In this document: positions 6,411 to 58,531 of the stretch, piece after piece
How the letters are laid out: each line of letters begins with the position of its first letter
How positions within the stretch are numbered: the first letter of the stretch is position 1
NCBI RefSeq assembly: GCF_900066015.1
Contig: NZ_LN890655.1
Location: 3,016,726 to 3,080,725, forward strand
Direction: 5' to 3'
Origin: Candidatus Promineifilum breve
GTDB lineage: Bacteria; Chloroflexota; Anaerolineae; Promineifilales; Promineifilaceae
DNA: 64,000 nucleotides
Translations under genes and position numbers: made by a program
Notes under the pieces: generated by a model
Databases searched by the model: none
Told to the model about the DNA's origin: nothing
Seen by the model: only the letters and a program-made list of their open reading frames with translations

Positions 6411-6428
6411 AATATCTCTTTGAAACCT

Positions 6429-8795
6429 ATGATCATCGGCATGGACTTCGGCACGACCAATAGCGGCATGGCGACCTACGACGGCCGCGCCGTCAACGTG
6501 CTGCCGCTTGACCCCGCGGCCCCCAACCCGCGCGTAGCCCGCACGGCGCTCTACATCACCAACGAGCAGGCCGTCACCATCGGCCGCGCGGCCATTGATC
6601 TCTACTTTGAGCACAACCTCAACCGCCCGGTCAAGATGCAGCGCGTCTGGGTGGGCGAACTGGAGATTTTGGCCGACCGGGTTCACTACGTGACCGACGT
6701 CTACGTTTTCGCCGACGTTCTCTCGCCCGGTCGCCTTTTCCTGTCGATCAAGACCGGCCTGCGCGACGTGGGCTACCCCGGCACGGTCATCGGCCAAGCC
6801 TTCTACTCGCTGGAAAGCCTCATCACCCTCTACCTGACCGTGACGCGGGCGCGGGCCGAGAAGCTGCTGGGCCGCGAATTGCGCCAGGTGGTGCTCGGCC
6901 GGCCCGTCCACTTCGCCGCCGATGCCGACGGCGACCGGCTGGCCGAGGCGCGGTTGCTCCACGCCGCGTTCAACGCCGGCTACCAGACCGTCTACCTGCA
7001 ATACGAACCCATCGCCGCCGCCTATAGTTACGCGCTGGAACTGACCCGGCCGGAAAACGCGCTGGTCTTCGACTTCGGCGGCGGCACGCTCGACATCACC
7101 GTCATGCGCCTGGGCGAGGGGCAGCCGCGCGTGCTCGCCACGGGCGGCATCGCCGTGGCCGGCGACGTGTTCGACCAGAAACTGGTGCGGGCCAAGCTGC
7201 CGCGCCACTTCGGCGAGGGCAGCCTTTATGGCCCGCGCCACAAGGCCCTGACCGTGCCGCAGTGGATCTACGACTCGTTCAGCGATTGGCAGACCATGCT
7301 GCAACTCCAGTCGGCCGACAACAAGAAAATCCTGCGCGAGATCGCCCAGACCGCCCAGCGCCGCCCGCAAATCGAGGCCCTGTTGGCCCTGGTGGGCAGC
7401 AATTATGGCCTGCGCATGTTCGACGTGGTGGAGGGGGCCAAGCGCACCCTGTCCGAGCGGCGCGGGGCGGAGATCGTCCTCGACGGCCCCGGCTTCAGTG
7501 TGCGCGAGTTCGTCACCCGCGGCGAGTTCGAGGGCATCATCCACAACGAGACGCGGGCCATCGAGCACCATCTGCTGGAGACGGTGCGCGCCTCCGGTCT
7601 GCCGCCGGAGCGCATCGACACCGTCATTCGTACCGGCGGGTCGGCGCTCATCCCCGCCTTCTACGAAATGCTCGGCCGCCACTACGGCGCGGCCAAGGTG
7701 CGCAGCATCGACACCTTCAGCAGCGTCACCGCCGGGTTGGGCGTCATCGGCCACCGGCTGGAGCGGGGCGAACTGGCGCTGACCTCCCACACCCCGGCCG
7801 ACTTCGCCGCCTTGCCCCCGGCCACCGGCGGCCGGCTCAACGTGCGGCCGGTCAATCTGGAGATGTTGCAGCGGCGGGTGAGGCTGGAAGAGCAGGGGGG
7901 CAGGGGGGCGGGGGAGCAGGGGAGCAGAGTCGTGCTGCTGGGTAGGCCGACGACTGGGGAAGAGGTGCGGGCGGAAATTCGTGTGACGGGCGAACAGTTA
8001 GGAGCGGACAGTGAAGAGGCGGACGGCGGGCCGTTTGTCACGGCGTTGCGGGTGGCGGCCGATGCCCAACTGCTGCTCATCACCTCGCGCTATCGCTTTA
8101 TGCTGAGCACGGCGCGGCAACTGGCCGACCTGCGCGAAGTGGGGCTGGACATCGAGAACTTGCACCGGCTGGCCCGACGCGAGGCGGTGGTGGCCGTGGT
8201 CGATTGGTCGGCGGCCCGCGAGCAGGAGCGGTTGTTGCTGGTGACCTCCACCGGCTACGCCCGCGCCTACCCGCTCGATTCATTGCGCCCGGCCATCGAA
8301 GCCCCCGCGCCGTTCTCATTCGACAACCCGCCGCCCGGCGTGCCGGTGCTGGCCCAGGGCGTCGGCCGCGACCGGCACGTGGTCATCGTGACCGCCGGCG
8401 GGCGTGGCGTGCGCTGGCCGCTGGCGAAGATACCGCTGAGTGGCATCCAGGCGCTCAATCCCGGCCGCGACGAGGCGTTCGACCGGGTGGCGGCGGCGCT
8501 GGCGGTGCGGCCCGACGAAGAGGCCGTGCTGGTGCTGGCCGACGGCTACGCCCGCCGCTTGCGGGCCGATTGGGTGGAGGAGCCGCTGAAGGCCAACGCC
8601 AAAGGCAAGGCACTGGTGGCGCGGCAAGCGGCGGCCGTGGGGCTGGTCGCGGTCGGGCCGCTGGAGCTATTCACCGAGCGGCGGCGACTGATGGCCGACG
8701 CGGGGCAGTTGCCGCTGGAGGATTCGACGAAGGCGTTTCGGTTGGTGAAGCTGGGAGAGGGTGAAACCTTGACGACGATACTAACGCGAAGCTAG
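6429..8795 (+). CDS. YegD-like Hsp70 ATPase fused to a gyrase-A-CTD-like beta-propeller
   Basis: A 788-residue protein. Residues 1-455 are an actin/Hsp70-fold ATPase of the YegD branch: phosphate-1 loop MDFGTTNSG (5-13), FDFGGGTLDIT (214-224), adenosine loop RTGGSALIPAF (401-411), and the NLG-like LVGSNYGLRMFDVVEGAK stretch; the usual Hsp70 substrate-binding domain is absent. Residues about 537-742 hold strand repeats that read like the GyrA/ParC C-terminal pinwheel: LLLITSRYRFMLS, RLLLVTSTGYARAYPLDSL, HVVIVTAGGRGVRWPLAKI and AVLVLADGYARRL with KANAKGKALVARQ, compared with the family's LLLVTxxGYGKRTPLSEF. The linker (487-500) is coded by a CCCCTGCTC-type repeat. ATG 6429 was preferred over TTG 6420. 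The fusion partner and role are inferred; no topoisomerase core is present. It follows aroE by 53 bases. Confidence 0.75.
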   Translation: MIIGMDFGTTNSGMATYDGRAVNVLPLDPAAPNPRVARTALYITNEQAVTIGRAAIDLYFEHNLNRPVKMQRVWVGELEILADRVHYVTDVYVFADVLSPGRLFLSIKTGLRDVGYPGTVIGQAFYSLESLITLYLTVTRARAEKLLGRELRQVVLGRPVHFAADADGDRLAEARLLHAAFNAGYQTVYLQYEPIAAAYSYALELTRPENALVFDFGGGTLDITVMRLGEGQPRVLATGGIAVAGDVFDQKLVRAKLPRHFGEGSLYGPRHKALTVPQWIYDSFSDWQTMLQLQSADNKKILREIAQTAQRRPQIEALLALVGSNYGLRMFDVVEGAKRTLSERRGAEIVLDGPGFSVREFVTRGEFEGIIHNETRAIEHHLLETVRASGLPPERIDTVIRTGGSALIPAFYEMLGRHYGAAKVRSIDTFSSVTAGLGVIGHRLERGELALTSHTPADFAALPPATGGRLNVRPVNLEMLQRRVRLEEQGGRGAGEQGSRVVLLGRPTTGEEVRAEIRVTGEQLGADSEEADGGPFVTALRVAADAQLLLITSRYRFMLSTARQLADLREVGLDIENLHRLARREAVVAVVDWSAAREQERLLLVTSTGYARAYPLDSLRPAIEAPAPFSFDNPPPGVPVLAQGVGRDRHVVIVTAGGRGVRWPLAKIPLSGIQALNPGRDEAFDRVAAALAVRPDEEAVLVLADGYARRLRADWVEEPLKANAKGKALVARQAAAVGLVAVGPLELFTERRRLMADAGQLPLEDSTKAFRLVKLGEGETLTTILTRS
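7891..7927. repeat. GGGGAGCAG-type repeat read in frame
   Basis: A G-rich AGCAGGGGGGC/GGGGAGCAGGGGAGCAG block inside the Hsp70-like gene, coding for GGRGAGEQGSR at the boundary between the ATPase and the C-terminal domain. The same family occurs at 51600, 52043, 58345 and 58497. Confidence 0.8.
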
Positions 8796-14240: not shown

Positions 14241-14340
14241 AGAATTAAACACGGATGGGACACGGATTAGACGGATTTTACGGATTGAATGGCTCAATCC
14301 GTAAAATCCGTCTAATCCGTGAGAATCCGTGTTTAATTCT
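14241..14340. repeat. AGAATT-N4-ACGGAT terminal-inverted-repeat element
   Basis: AGAATTAAACACGGAT at the left end pairs with ATCCGTGTTTAATTCT at the right end; the arms (14241-14288 and 14294-14340) pair over almost their whole length with a one-base bulge. It lies between convergent genes, seven bases after the permease stop, and its right end supplies the stop codon of the methyltransferase at 14333. Confidence 0.9.
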
Positions 14341-47165: not shown

Positions 47166-48068
47166 TCCGCCGTCCCCCATCCAGCCCACCCGCAACCCTC
47201 GCCAATAGGCCCGCAATGCCTCGCCCTTGCCGGCCAGCAGCAGGTGGCCGGTCATCTTGAGGGCGCTGAACAGCCGGAACGGCACAATGAGCAGCAGCCG
47301 CGGCCCGCGGCCGTGCTTGCGGAAGTAGCGCCCGCCGCTTTCGGCCATGTAGTAGCGCTCCATCGGGCTATCCCGGCCGCCACTGCTGGCGCTGACGTCG
47401 TGGCGCACGTGGGCGTCGGGCCGCAGCCGGATGCGCCAGCCGACGGCCCGCGCCCGGCGGCAGTAGTCCATGTCCTCATAATAGAGGAAGAACGCCTCGT
47501 CCAGCAGGCCCACGCCGGCGATCACCTCGCGGCGGATAAGGATGGCGCAGAACGGGGCAAAGTCCACGTCGCGCGGCGCGGCCCATTGCCCGGCGTCGAT
47601 CTGCCCCTGCCCGCCGTCCTTCAGGTCGAGGAAAACGTTGAGATTCGCGCCCACCGTCCAGATGCGGTTCGGCTCGGCGGCATAGTAGATTTTGGCCGTC
47701 GCTAAGCCCACATCCGGCATTGTTTCCAGTTCAGCGACCAGGTGCGTCACCACATCCGGCGCGACTAGCGTGTCATTATTCAGTAGCAGGAAGTAGCGGC
47801 CGTCGCCGGCCATTGCCCGGCGCAACCCGGCATTGTAGCCCCCGGCAAAGCCCAAATTAGTCGGCAGCCGTAACATCTCGACAGTCGGGAAGCGGGCGGC
47901 GATGGCCTCGGCAAGCGGCGGTTCGCTGCCGTTATCGACCAGCAGCACGCGGACGGCGGGGTAATCGAGCGCGGCAACCGTGGTCAGACAGGCCAGCGTC
48001 TTCTCCAGTTGATTCCAGGCGACGATGATGACGGTAACAGGTGGGGAAGAGGAAACCACAGATTTCAC
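47151..48068 (-). CDS. Glycosyltransferase family 2 (rhamnosyl-type)
   Basis: A 305-residue GT-A fold enzyme. The opening VTVIIVAWNQLEKTLACL, VLLVDNGSE, LPTNLGFAGGYNAG and the metal-binding LLLNNDTLV are typical of the WbbL-like rhamnosyltransferase group; the catalytic base lies in FFLYYEDMDYCRRARAVGW. It lacks C-terminal membrane helices apart from a short hydrophobic patch. It would add a sugar to a surface polysaccharide or lipid-linked glycan. The first ten residues (MKSVVSSSPP) come from a CAGATT-type repeat, and the end from a GGTCGGC repeat, so both termini have been remodelled. Confidence 0.9.
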   Translation of the reverse strand: MKSVVSSSPPVTVIIVAWNQLEKTLACLTTVAALDYPAVRVLLVDNGSEPPLAEAIAARFPTVEMLRLPTNLGFAGGYNAGLRRAMAGDGRYFLLLNNDTLVAPDVVTHLVAELETMPDVGLATAKIYYAAEPNRIWTVGANLNVFLDLKDGGQGQIDAGQWAAPRDVDFAPFCAILIRREVIAGVGLLDEAFFLYYEDMDYCRRARAVGWRIRLRPDAHVRHDVSASSGGRDSPMERYYMAESGGRYFRKHGRGPRLLLIVPFRLFSALKMTGHLLLAGKGEALRAYWRGLRVGWMGDGGRPTE

Positions 48069-48086
48069 AGATTTTGAAGAGATATC

Positions 48087-48159
48087 ATCCGCAGATTTCG
48101 CAGATTAAGCAGATTTTAAGATATTTTCTTAATCTGCGTAATCTGCGAAATCTGCGGAT
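48087..48159. repeat. ATCCGCAGATT palindromic element
   Basis: ATCCGCAGATTTCGCAGATT at the left pairs with AATCTGCG...AATCTGCGGAT at the right, between two glycosyltransferase genes. A sister element lies at 57230-57305. The same CAGATT words continue to 48066 across the start of the 47151 gene. Confidence 0.85.
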
Positions 48160-48178
48160 AAAACCTCTTCATAGACAT

Positions 48179-50665: not shown

Positions 50666-51916
50666 TTAGAGCGCCCGGCACAGCAGCCCCTTCAGATAGG
50701 CCGACTCCGGGAAGGACAGCAGCACCGGGTGGTCGGCCGCCTGGCCCAGATGCTGGACGATCTGCGCGTCGCGCCCGGCATCGACCGCCGCGCCGAAGAC
50801 GATCTTCTGGAACAGGTCGGCGCTGACCAGCCCGGAGCAGGAGAAGGTCGCCAGTACGCCCTCGGGTCGCAACAGGCGCAATGCCAGCCAGTTCAAATCC
50901 TTGTAGCCGCGGGCGGCGCGGTCGACCTGACCCTGGGTGTGGGCGAATTTGGGCGGGTCGAGGATGACGGCGTCGAACTGGCGGCCCGTCTCGCGGAAGT
51001 AGCGCAAGACTTCGAAGGCGTCGCCGGCGATGTATTCGTCTTCCGGCCGGGCCAGATTGTTGAGGGCCATGTGGCGCTCGGCCATCTCCAGCGCCGGGGC
51101 CGAGCTATCGATCTGGACGACCGAGCGCGCCCCGGCCGCGGCGGCATAGACGCCGAACGCGCCGGTGTAGGCGAAGACGTTGAGCACGTCGCGCCCGGCC
51201 ATCAATGCCGGTTGCCCGACGATGGCCCGGTTGTCGCGCTGATCAAGGTAGAAGCCGGTCTTGTGGCCGTGGTGGACATCGACCAGGAAGGCGAAGCCGT
51301 TCTCGCGGATGGTGATCTCCGGCGGGACTTCTCCGTAGCGCAGTTCGACCAGCGGCCGTAGCCCCTCCTTGCCGCGCACGTCCACGTCCGACCGCTCCAG
51401 AATGCCCGCCGGTTGCAGCAATTCGACCAGCAGGCGGGTGATCATTTCCTTGCGCCGGTCGATGCCCAGCGTCAGGCATTGCATGACGAGATAGTCGCCG
51501 TAGCGGTCGACCACGAGGCCGGGCAGGCGGTCGGCTTCGGCGTTGACGAGGCGAAGAGCTGTGGTCAGTGGTCGGTGGTCAGTGGTCAGTAACTCGTTCG
51601 CCCCTGCTCCCCTGCTCCCCTGCTCCCCTGCGCTTGCCCGTCCCATAATCGCCTGCCGCAGCCGGCCGCGCCAGAAGTCATCATCGATTGGCTCATCCGG
51701 ATTCCAGGAGAGGATACGGGCCTGAATCTGCGATTGGGCATTGTAATAGGCCGTCGCCAGCCGCTGGCCGCGGTGGTCGGCGACGGTCACCAGATCGCCG
51801 GGCGCGGGTTGGCCCGTCAGCCGGGCGATGGCCCCGGAGAAAATCCACGGATGGCGCTGGCGGACGGGTTTGTCGCGGCCTTCCTTTAAGGTTAGGGTGA
51901 TGGTTGGCGATTCCAT
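50666..51916 (-). CDS. rlmI: RlmI-like 23S rRNA (cytosine-5)-methyltransferase with in-frame repeat insertion
   Basis: A 416-residue class I methyltransferase of the RlmI group (m5C1962 of 23S rRNA in E. coli). An N-terminal PUA domain (about 1-75, RHPWIFSGAIARL) is followed by the EEHUD-like linker region with LRLVNAEADRLPGLVVDRYG, SAM motif VLNVFAYTGAFGVYAAAAGA, motif IV LDPPKFAH and the cysteine motif FSCSGLVSADLF. Residues about 94-119 (ASAGEQGSRGAG, then ELLTTDHRPLTT) are coded by two different dispersed repeats inserted in frame, just before the conserved core, making the protein some 25 residues longer than expected. Gene activity is probably kept because the insertion sits in a linker. 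Confidence 0.88.
   Translation of the reverse strand: MESPTITLTLKEGRDKPVRQRHPWIFSGAIARLTGQPAPGDLVTVADHRGQRLATAYYNAQSQIQARILSWNPDEPIDDDFWRGRLRQAIMGRASAGEQGSRGAGANELLTTDHRPLTTALRLVNAEADRLPGLVVDRYGDYLVMQCLTLGIDRRKEMITRLLVELLQPAGILERSDVDVRGKEGLRPLVELRYGEVPPEITIRENGFAFLVDVHHGHKTGFYLDQRDNRAIVGQPALMAGRDVLNVFAYTGAFGVYAAAAGARSVVQIDSSAPALEMAERHMALNNLARPEDEYIAGDAFEVLRYFRETGRQFDAVILDPPKFAHTQGQVDRAARGYKDLNWLALRLLRPEGVLATFSCSGLVSADLFQKIVFGAAVDAGRDAQIVQHLGQAADHPVLLSFPESAYLKGLLCRAL
51560..51632. repeat. Two repeat families inserted inside rlmI
   Basis: GTGGTCAGTGGTCGGTGGTC-type heptamers (51561-51592) directly joined to CCCCTGCTCCCCTGCTCCCC (51600-51632). Their combined length keeps the reading frame of rlmI. 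Confidence 0.9.
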
Positions 51917-51930
51917 AGTAGTGAGTGAGT

Positions 51931-52072
51931 CGCTGTCGCTATCGCAATCGTGATCGCTTATCGTTCTTCAGCGGTCGGTAGTCAGTATCCAGTATTAAGT
52001 GGCAAGTGACAAATGGCAAGTGGCGAGTGCCGGTCAATCACCCCTGCTCCCCTGCCCCCCTGCTCCCCTGCG
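51931..52072. repeat. Composite repeat block between rlmI and the EamA permease
   Basis: CGCTGTCGCTATCGCAATCG hexamer-type words ending ATCGTTCTT (51931-51968), then AGCGGTCGGTAGTCAGTA and GGCAAGTGACAAATGGCAAG units, then CCCCTGCTCCCCTGCCCCCC (from 52041), which codes for the last residues of the permease. Confidence 0.8.
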
Positions 52073-52967
52073 CCTCGGCCTCGCCGAACAGTTGCGAGAT
52101 CAGGATACCGGCCAACATCAACACGCAGCCCAGGAAGGCACGGCTGGTCAATTGCTCACCCAGCAGCAGCCAACCGGCGAAAACGGCAAAGACGGCTTCC
52201 AGGCTGAGCAGGATGGCCGCGTCGGCCGGGCGTGCGTTGCCCAGGGCCACGACCTGCAAGGTATAGCCGAGGCCCACGGACAGGATGCCGGAGTAGAGAA
52301 TAGGGATCAATGCGGCCCGGAAGTCGGCGATGGCGCTGGTCTCGAAGAGCAGCGCGGCCACGGCGCTGAGAGCGGCGCAGACCATGAATTGCAGAAAGGA
52401 GAGCTTGATGGTGTCGGTCTGGGGCGAGAAATGGCCGAGAACCAGGAAATGGATGGCCCACACGAACGCCCCCACCAGTACCAGCAGGTCGCCCCAGGCC
52501 ATGCCGAACGCGCCCTCGATGGTCAGGAAGTAGAGACCGGCGGCGGCCAGCACCGCCCCAACCCACACGGCGGCCGAAGGGCGATGCCCCACAAGCAACC
52601 CCAGCAGCGGCACGAGCACGACGTAGAGGCTGGTGATGAAGCCGGCCTTGCCCGCCGTGGTGAAGACGATGCCCGCCTGTTGCAGCGTGGCCCCGCCAAA
52701 GAGCAGCAGCCCGACCACCGCGCCGCCGCGCAGCAGCCGCCGGTCGCGCAGCGGGACGACAGCCAGGCCAACCCGTTGCCGCTGGCGGTCGAATAGCCCC
52801 ATCAGCGGCAGCAAGACCAGGCCGCCCAGCAGGAAGCGCACGGCGTTGAAGGCGAACGGGCCGAGGTGGGCCATGCCCGTGCGCTGGGCGACGAAGGAAA
52901 AGCCCCAGATGAAGGCCGCCAGCAACAGGAGCAGATTGGCGCGCAGGCGCGGCGAGAGGGTAGCCAT
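52038..52967 (-). CDS. EamA/DMT family transporter
   Basis: A 309-residue permease with ten helices in two EamA halves: LLLLLAAFIWGFSFVAQR opens the first and GDLLVLVGAFVWAIHFLVLG the second, each with the conserved AFxWG/W pattern. LLSLEAVFAVFAGWLLLGEQ is the typical late-helix motif. The family exports metabolites or takes up small organic solutes; the substrate cannot be predicted. The last eleven residues ([12 protein letters not shown]) derive from a CCCCTGCTC repeat and replace the natural tail. It starts 15 bases after the stop of the upstream alpha/beta hydrolase gene. Confidence 0.9.
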   Translation of the reverse strand: MATLSPRLRANLLLLLAAFIWGFSFVAQRTGMAHLGPFAFNAVRFLLGGLVLLPLMGLFDRQRQRVGLAVVPLRDRRLLRGGAVVGLLLFGGATLQQAGIVFTTAGKAGFITSLYVVLVPLLGLLVGHRPSAAVWVGAVLAAAGLYFLTIEGAFGMAWGDLLVLVGAFVWAIHFLVLGHFSPQTDTIKLSFLQFMVCAALSAVAALLFETSAIADFRAALIPILYSGILSVGLGYTLQVVALGNARPADAAILLSLEAVFAVFAGWLLLGEQLTSRAFLGCVLMLAGILISQLFGEAEAQGSRGAGEQG

Positions 52968-57169: not shown

Positions 57170-57312
57170 ACGACCCGCTCGTCCGCGAGCGCCGACCACC
57201 GACCACACGAAGGCGCAAAGAAGAATATGATCCGCAGATTACGCAGATTACGCAGATTTAAGAATTTTCTCTTAAAAATCTGCGAAATCTGCGTAATCTG
57301 CGGATAACTCCT
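57170..57312. repeat. GACCACC units next to an ATCCGCAGATT palindromic element
   Basis: GCTCGTCCGCGAGC and GACCACCGACCACAC (57178-57208) precede a palindrome from ATCCGCAG (57230) to CTGCGGAT (57305) built of CAGATT words, sister of 48087-48159. Its right end lies nine bases from the stop of the F420 oxidoreductase. Confidence 0.85.
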
Positions 57313-58315: not shown

Positions 58316-58344
58316 GTGTTTCTCCTTATGTGGTGGTGTTGGTG

Positions 58345-58531
58345 GGGGAGCAGGGGGGCAGGGGAGCAGGGGGGCAGGGGGGCGGGGGAGATTTTGCTCC
58401 AATGGCCCTGTTCTGTTGCTAAACTTACTACGGTTTCCGGTTCAACTGTCATTGGCTGCACCTGTATATCTTGACGGCGATGAGTGGGAGAATCATCTCC
58501 CCTGCTCCCCTGCTCCCTTTCTCCCCTGCTC
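58345..58531. repeat. Paired CCCCTGCTC / GGGGAGCAGG repeats
   Basis: GGGGGAGCAGGGGGGCAGGG (from 58347 to 58390) and the inverse CCCCTGCTCCCCTGCTCCC (from 58499) lie about 110 bases apart and can pair. They fill the gap between cofC and the F420 oxidoreductase; nothing else is seen in the gap. Confidence 0.85.

Follow-up and report, generated by a model that had tools for sequence, protein, structure and literature searches.

Palindromes within bacterial coding sequence are documented from Rickettsia, from Wolbachia and from enterobacterial fusions with miniature inverted-repeat transposable elements (MITEs), and the short tandemly repeated repetitive sequences (STRRs) are known mainly as intergenic repeats of cyanobacteria. 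Here we describe a locus that shares features with both: an RlmI-like 23S rRNA methyltransferase gene of Candidatus Promineifilum breve, a member of the Chloroflexota, in which two families of short, dispersed tandem repeats, one of heptamers and one of octamers, encode the linker between two parts of the enzyme. The gene lies within a 64,000-nucleotide stretch of contig NZ_LN890655.1 (positions 3,016,726 to 3,080,725, forward strand), hereafter the window, whose numbering is used throughout.

The STRRs of cyanobacteria are hairpin-forming sequences built of 7-bp units and have been reported upstream of hoxW and in the interval separating hupS from hupL (PMC2670836); to judge by the title of Vioque 1997 (cited in PMC4748335), heterocyst formers also have one within their RNase P RNA gene. 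Rickettsia palindromic elements (RPEs) occur both between genes and in frame within conserved protein genes whose products tolerate them, as the work of Ogata 2000 and Abergel 2006 is summarised in a review (PMC2229807). The GGGAATC and GGGGA(C/T)T repeats of Xanthomonas and Nostoc are dispersed, favour four units and form quadruplexes in vitro (PMC4692102). The TAACTGA heptamers of Beggiatoaceae, Cyanobacteria and Bacteroidetes are distributed patchily over unrelated phyla, mainly in intergenic positions near start codons, and their translation in one orientation, LITDN-stop, is expected to end genes (PMC4679880).

The gene and its repeat-derived parts are the following:

50666..51916, minus strand: gene for an RlmI-like 23S rRNA (cytosine-C5) methyltransferase of 416 aa, from its open reading frame (ORF), Pfam and NCBIfam.
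51566..51637, minus strand: repeat-derived linker, residues 94-117, ASAGEQGSRGAGANELLTTDHRPL, from the alignment with about 100 homologues and from AlphaFold2 (predicted local distance difference test, pLDDT, below 50 at residues 99-112).
51601..51631, minus strand: octamer array (family B), G-rich arm (GGGGAGCA)n on the coding strand, encoding GEQGSRGAG, from Tandem Repeats Finder (TRF).
51561..51590, minus strand: heptamer array (family A), C-rich arm (TGACCAC)n on the coding strand, encoding LLTTDHRPLTT, from TRF.
51572..51574, minus strand: CGA codon of Arg115, where the consensus heptamer would put an in-frame TGA stop, from translation of the actual and the canonical array.

The unit of family B is GGGGAGCA/CCCCTGCT and that of family A is GTGGTCA/TGACCAC; TRF scored the octamer array at 3.9 copies with a 100% match and the heptamer array at 4.3 copies with a 91% match. 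The sequence ASAGEQGSRGAGANELLTTDHRPL lies between Arg93 and the conserved Thr118-Thr119-Ala120, and nearly all of residues 94-117 are encoded by the arrays, the 3' end of the heptamer array running into the conserved Thr-Thr-Ala (TTA) codons (ACC ACN GCN) when codons are compared. All six frames of the octamer are free of stops, and its coding strand in this gene contains four GGGG tracts with 4-nt loops. The CGA of Arg115 stems from a unit variant with the junction GTGGTCG, which occurs at 15 of the 127 unit junctions sampled. A tryptic peptide expected from residues 94-122 would be, for example, GAGANELLTTDHR. A preliminary description of this DNA had placed a heptamer and an octamer block in frame inside rlmI, at the linker between the PUA region and the catalytic domain, and proposed that dispersed repeats make protein sequence there; both points hold, and its figure of about 25 added residues needs correction, as the 24 residues at 94-117 replace about 8 native ones for a net gain of 16. 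RlmI, the name that it used, is the top NCBIfam model for the ORF but scores 387 bits against an equivalog cut-off of 712, and with a score under that curated cut-off we label the product RlmI-like.

A Pfam search found PUA_3 at residues 8-71 of the protein together with S-adenosylmethionine (SAM)-dependent methyltransferase families, and the closest solved structure is that of E. coli YccW/RlmI (3C0K, E 3e-107). The AlphaFold2 model, built from an alignment of 59 sequences derived from the window and the loci, has a mean pLDDT of 92.4, and residues 99-112, directly after the helix at 79-98, are the sole stretch below 50. The insert, which follows the PUA helix and precedes the central domain, is thus predicted to form a floppy loop that joins the PUA part to the remainder of the enzyme, for which it is most likely neutral.

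To place the insert among relatives we measured the linker between fixed alignment columns in about 100 homologues, which come from other genera in the family, order and class and from further afield. The site is empty in all of the other genera examined: the interval is mostly 49 residues long (range 43-54), typically reads GRAALALEPATTAYRL and has about 8 residues where the insert sits, and E. coli RlmI likewise has a short linker. Within the genus, the six genomes that possess the gene all carry a lengthened linker at the same place, of 65 (Ca. P. breve), 61, 69, 70, 76 and 68 residues, which is 12-27 residues longer than elsewhere, and their inserts cannot be aligned with one another. A repeat origin is clear in four of the six, and these differ in family or orientation. 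Besides the linker of Ca. P. breve, that of genome G002 holds the C-rich arm of the octamer, for which the same genome has 59 further matches, that of G003 has heptamer-type (A) arm units beside the TTA codons, and that of G004 has an arm of a third family (C), AATGACGAATTACGAATGACGAA, followed by an octamer arm in the orientation opposite to that in Ca. P. breve. As every one of the six has a long linker of different content, the site has probably been filled since about the ancestor of the genus and has turned over since.

These comparisons reject a single recent insertion, every gene-bearing genome of the genus having a filled site, and do not support, as it was worded, the earlier view of a repeat caught in the act at one gene; the content differs between the six, and many genes are involved. 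The finding that was to count against that view, an equally long but unrelated linker in relatives, is true to the letter within the genus, but outside it the linker is short, and dispersed repeats are the clear source of four of the six linkers. The idea behind the preliminary description is therefore partly supported, in a broader form.

The repeats form pairs of arms with a fixed order. Where two octamer arms neighbour one another within 80 bp, the G-rich arm is 5' and the C-rich arm 3' in 24 of 24 pairs, and over all families this order prevails by 38 to 5. Octamer pairs inside the genes for MoeA, TrpE and an ABC exporter are predicted to form stems of -74 to -84 kcal/mol, with z scores of -7 to -8. 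On the coding strand of the RlmI-like gene the G-rich arm of family B precedes the C-rich arm of family A, which is the order of complete hairpins elsewhere; the G004 linker likewise combines arms from two families, and a comparable octamer-heptamer composite lies at G000:C1:3123981-3124067. We infer from this arrangement that the inserts of Ca. P. breve and G004 may be recombined or fused half-elements of different families. The two blocks earlier described as inserted back to back are more readily taken for arms of hairpin elements than for two separate insertions. Separately, hairpins with iterated 9-mer arms (CGCAGATTA, ACGGATTAG) that appear by eye to have the same layout lie at 48050-48160, 57228-57305 and 14255-14335 of the window.

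Both repeats far exceed chance expectation. Within the window GTGGTCAGTGGTC was observed 6 times where chance would give 0.002, and CCCCTGCTCCCCTGC 7 times where it would give 0.0008, an excess of at least a thousandfold for each; the earlier observation that both recur there is borne out. Across the 5.03-Mb genome, over which the repeats are dispersed in both orientations, a 14-mer heptamer probe (GTGGTCAGTGGTCA) has 168 exact places and a 15-mer octamer probe (CCCCTGCTCCCCTGC) has 329; the reversed control patterns of the two probes have none. The insert in the RlmI-like gene is one instance of a genome-wide habit of hundreds of dispersed repeats, which resembles that of Rickettsia and of cyanobacteria.

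Many other copies lie in frame in conserved genes. We sampled 60 short stretches around repeat places, with sites drawn from the first 100 among the places listed, in one half of contig 1, and called arrays as coding by a heuristic that combines an open frame with bias in third-position G+C content (GC3). By this measure 34 of the 103 arrays in the stretches and the window lie in coding-like frames, and octamer arrays do so more often than heptamer arrays (30/75 versus 4/28, p 0.018), in keeping with the lack of stops in the octamer. Since coding sequence usually makes up well over 80% of a bacterial genome, the arrays, with a third of them in coding-like frames, still avoid genes. All ten ORFs that were tested (hydantoinase B, a methyltransferase, ThiD, a Cu-oxidase_4 laccase, MoeA, an ABC exporter, DnaG, TrpE, an M16C peptidase and the DNA polymerase III alpha subunit DnaE) have Pfam domains that overlap or surround the array, several arrays falling inside the domain envelope. 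Alignments show that the TrpE and M16C-peptidase inserts are absent from relatives outside the genus, and the M16C gene of a sister species (G007) has an octamer hairpin of its own at the same site. DnaG is a weaker case, the array-bearing stretch being a linker of variable length in all genera. The MoeA gene contains two hairpin inserts, each in frame and from a different family (L187 715-800 and 1399-1492), and the C-terminal part of the DNA polymerase III alpha gene (L198 57-2399) has several repeat families in frame.

How do these repeats compare with the systems described above? They share with STRRs their build of short tandem units (about 7 bp in STRRs, 8 bp in the octamer here), their dispersal in high copy number and the ability of the arrays, the insert in the RlmI-like gene excepted, to form hairpins, as the inverted octamer pairs indicate. 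The octamer array also occurs in filamentous cyanobacteria: when the insert was searched against 72,556 plasmids, all 21 matching records were cyanobacterial and matched through the octamer array, and a query with the heptamer alone found no match among these plasmids. Four annotated cyanobacterial plasmid genes from Nostocales, for two polyketide synthases, PhnI and CyRepA1, have the octamer array in frame and encode a near-identical peptide, and in two of the four a C-rich arm follows, in the same arm order (stretches L249-L252). The repeats differ from STRRs in their host, a genus of Chloroflexota, in having arms of octamers, 9-mers and heptamers, and in lying many times in frame in core protein genes. 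The in-frame inserts with an empty site in relatives (RlmI-like, TrpE and M16C peptidase) resemble RPEs; however, RPEs are stem-loops of 105-146 bp, whereas the arms here are iterated 7-9-mers of variable length and mixed family, and the insert in the RlmI-like gene is about 72 nt long and has no hairpin. Unlike the G-rich repeats of Xanthomonas and Nostoc, the four-tract G strand is here the coding strand of the gene. The LITDN-stop of the TAACTGA heptamers resembles the LTTDH-stop of the heptamer here. An Rfam search gave no match for the repeats.

Each ingredient thus has precedent, and we did not find their combination, in a Chloroflexota genus in which the same site is differently refilled in sister species, in the literature searched, which covers subscription journals thinly. 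One genus here joins coding palindromes and STRR-like repeats, in frame in genes for replication, biosynthesis and rRNA modification, and with several sister genomes to hand the question of how dispersed repeats become protein is directly testable by strain comparison.

The best reading of these data is one of STRR-type hairpins with iterated arms that survive in surface loops where the frame and stop codons allow. We consider it probable that the insert consists of the remnants of two such hairpins, drawn from a genome-wide set that spreads by copying from repeat to repeat and is filtered by selection. The repeats would spread by template switching or gene conversion at short homologies, slippage within arrays would add to this, and no dedicated transposase would be needed. 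A tolerant surface linker by native ACC-ACN-GCN codons, already similar to the heptamer, could serve as a site of landing and turnover. Selection would then act as a filter, retaining only those copies that stay in frame and free of stops, and the heptamer would be tolerated in the RlmI-like gene because its single would-be TGA is CGA.

Several points weigh against this reading. The insert in the RlmI-like gene forms no predicted hairpin itself (z +0.9), and hairpin formation by it is rejected; outside the octamer-octamer pairs the arm order is at most suggestive (14:5, p 0.06). For the linker of G006 no significant second copy was found in the G006 genome, which is 68% complete, and the linker of G005, which contains ambiguous bases, matched none of the three family patterns. 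The coding estimate comes from a GC3 and open-frame heuristic applied to a non-random sample. Finally, the proposed transfer mechanism is deduced from the patterns above.

The same reading can be carried further, to hairpins common to the Chloroflexota genus and Nostocales, whether by transfer or by convergence, that actively invade coding genes and exchange within them at preferred linker sites. We regard this extension as possible but doubtful. If true, sister species would differ in the repeats that they carry at one codon position of the same enzymes, and recombination among largely stop-free repeats would naturally and continually supply new protein sequence.

Among the other explanations, movement of the hairpins in trans by a transposase fares best, although we think it unlikely. 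By this account they are true non-autonomous transposons of the MITE or REPIN kind, mobilised by a transposase of the kind associated with repetitive extragenic palindromic (REP) sequences (RAYT), by an IS200-like or by another enzyme, and lie in frame by chance. The fixed arm order, the dispersal through the genome in both orientations and the occupied and empty sites in several genes would all suit such elements, and as short dispersed palindromes in high copy number the repeats resemble REP sequences and REP-derived hairpins (REPINs). Inverted arms are present in many copies. However, a search covering the Y1 family found three Y1_Tnp (PF01797) genes only, and none of them adjoins clear copies of these repeats, the flanks examined having no arrays of families A, B or C but one weak heptamer match. 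The number of units per arm varies and families are mixed, unlike an element of fixed length, and at the RlmI-like gene, the single site inspected, no target-site duplication is evident and native codons are replaced rather than split.

A local origin, in which heptamer-like native ACC-ACN-GCN codons expanded by slippage without imported repeats, seems to us improbable. It would account for the heptamer array lying flush with the conserved TTA codons and for the heptamer-like units at the same edge in G003, but it cannot yield the C-family and opposite-orientation octamer blocks of G004 and G002, and slippage alone is rejected for Ca. P. breve by an octamer block that is unrelated to the native codons.

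We give only a slim chance to the proposal that the long linker is functional, either as a G-quadruplex or structured mRNA that regulates the gene or as a useful flexible linker, and is kept by selection in the genus. All six genomes retain it, the four GGGG tracts with their 4-nt spacers on the coding strand make a classic quadruplex pattern, and similar G-rich bacterial repeats form quadruplexes in vitro (PMC4692102). Against this, its sequence, composition and orientation vary among species, the G-rich strand is the non-coding strand at the linker in G002 and G004, and the region is predicted to be disordered. An assembly or sequencing artefact is scarcely credible: low-complexity repeats are prone to error, but the assembly is near-complete (3 contigs, 99.96% complete), and independent assemblies of sister species show different repeats at this codon position without loss of frame.

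Elsewhere in the window the repeats had been described as intergenic, which is true of some copies but not of these three, which fall in ORFs:

7885..7930, minus strand: octamer array whose C-rich unit is on the minus strand, in frame in an Hsp70-like ORF of 791 aa (6420-8795, plus strand).
52041..52071, plus strand: second octamer array, encoding the C-terminus of the adjoining EamA transporter ORF (52038-52967, minus strand).
58343..58390: octamer array in the N-terminal end of an ORF for a luciferase-like monooxygenase.

The first of these separates the Hsp70-like part from a C-terminal one that by eye resembles gyrase-CTD (C-terminal domain) repeats, and the true start of the luciferase-like ORF may lie downstream of the array (MDRLALYLQ). 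In addition, a perfect 14-bp tandem array, CACTCCCGTGCGCC, is present in 4.2 copies at 229-287 of the window.
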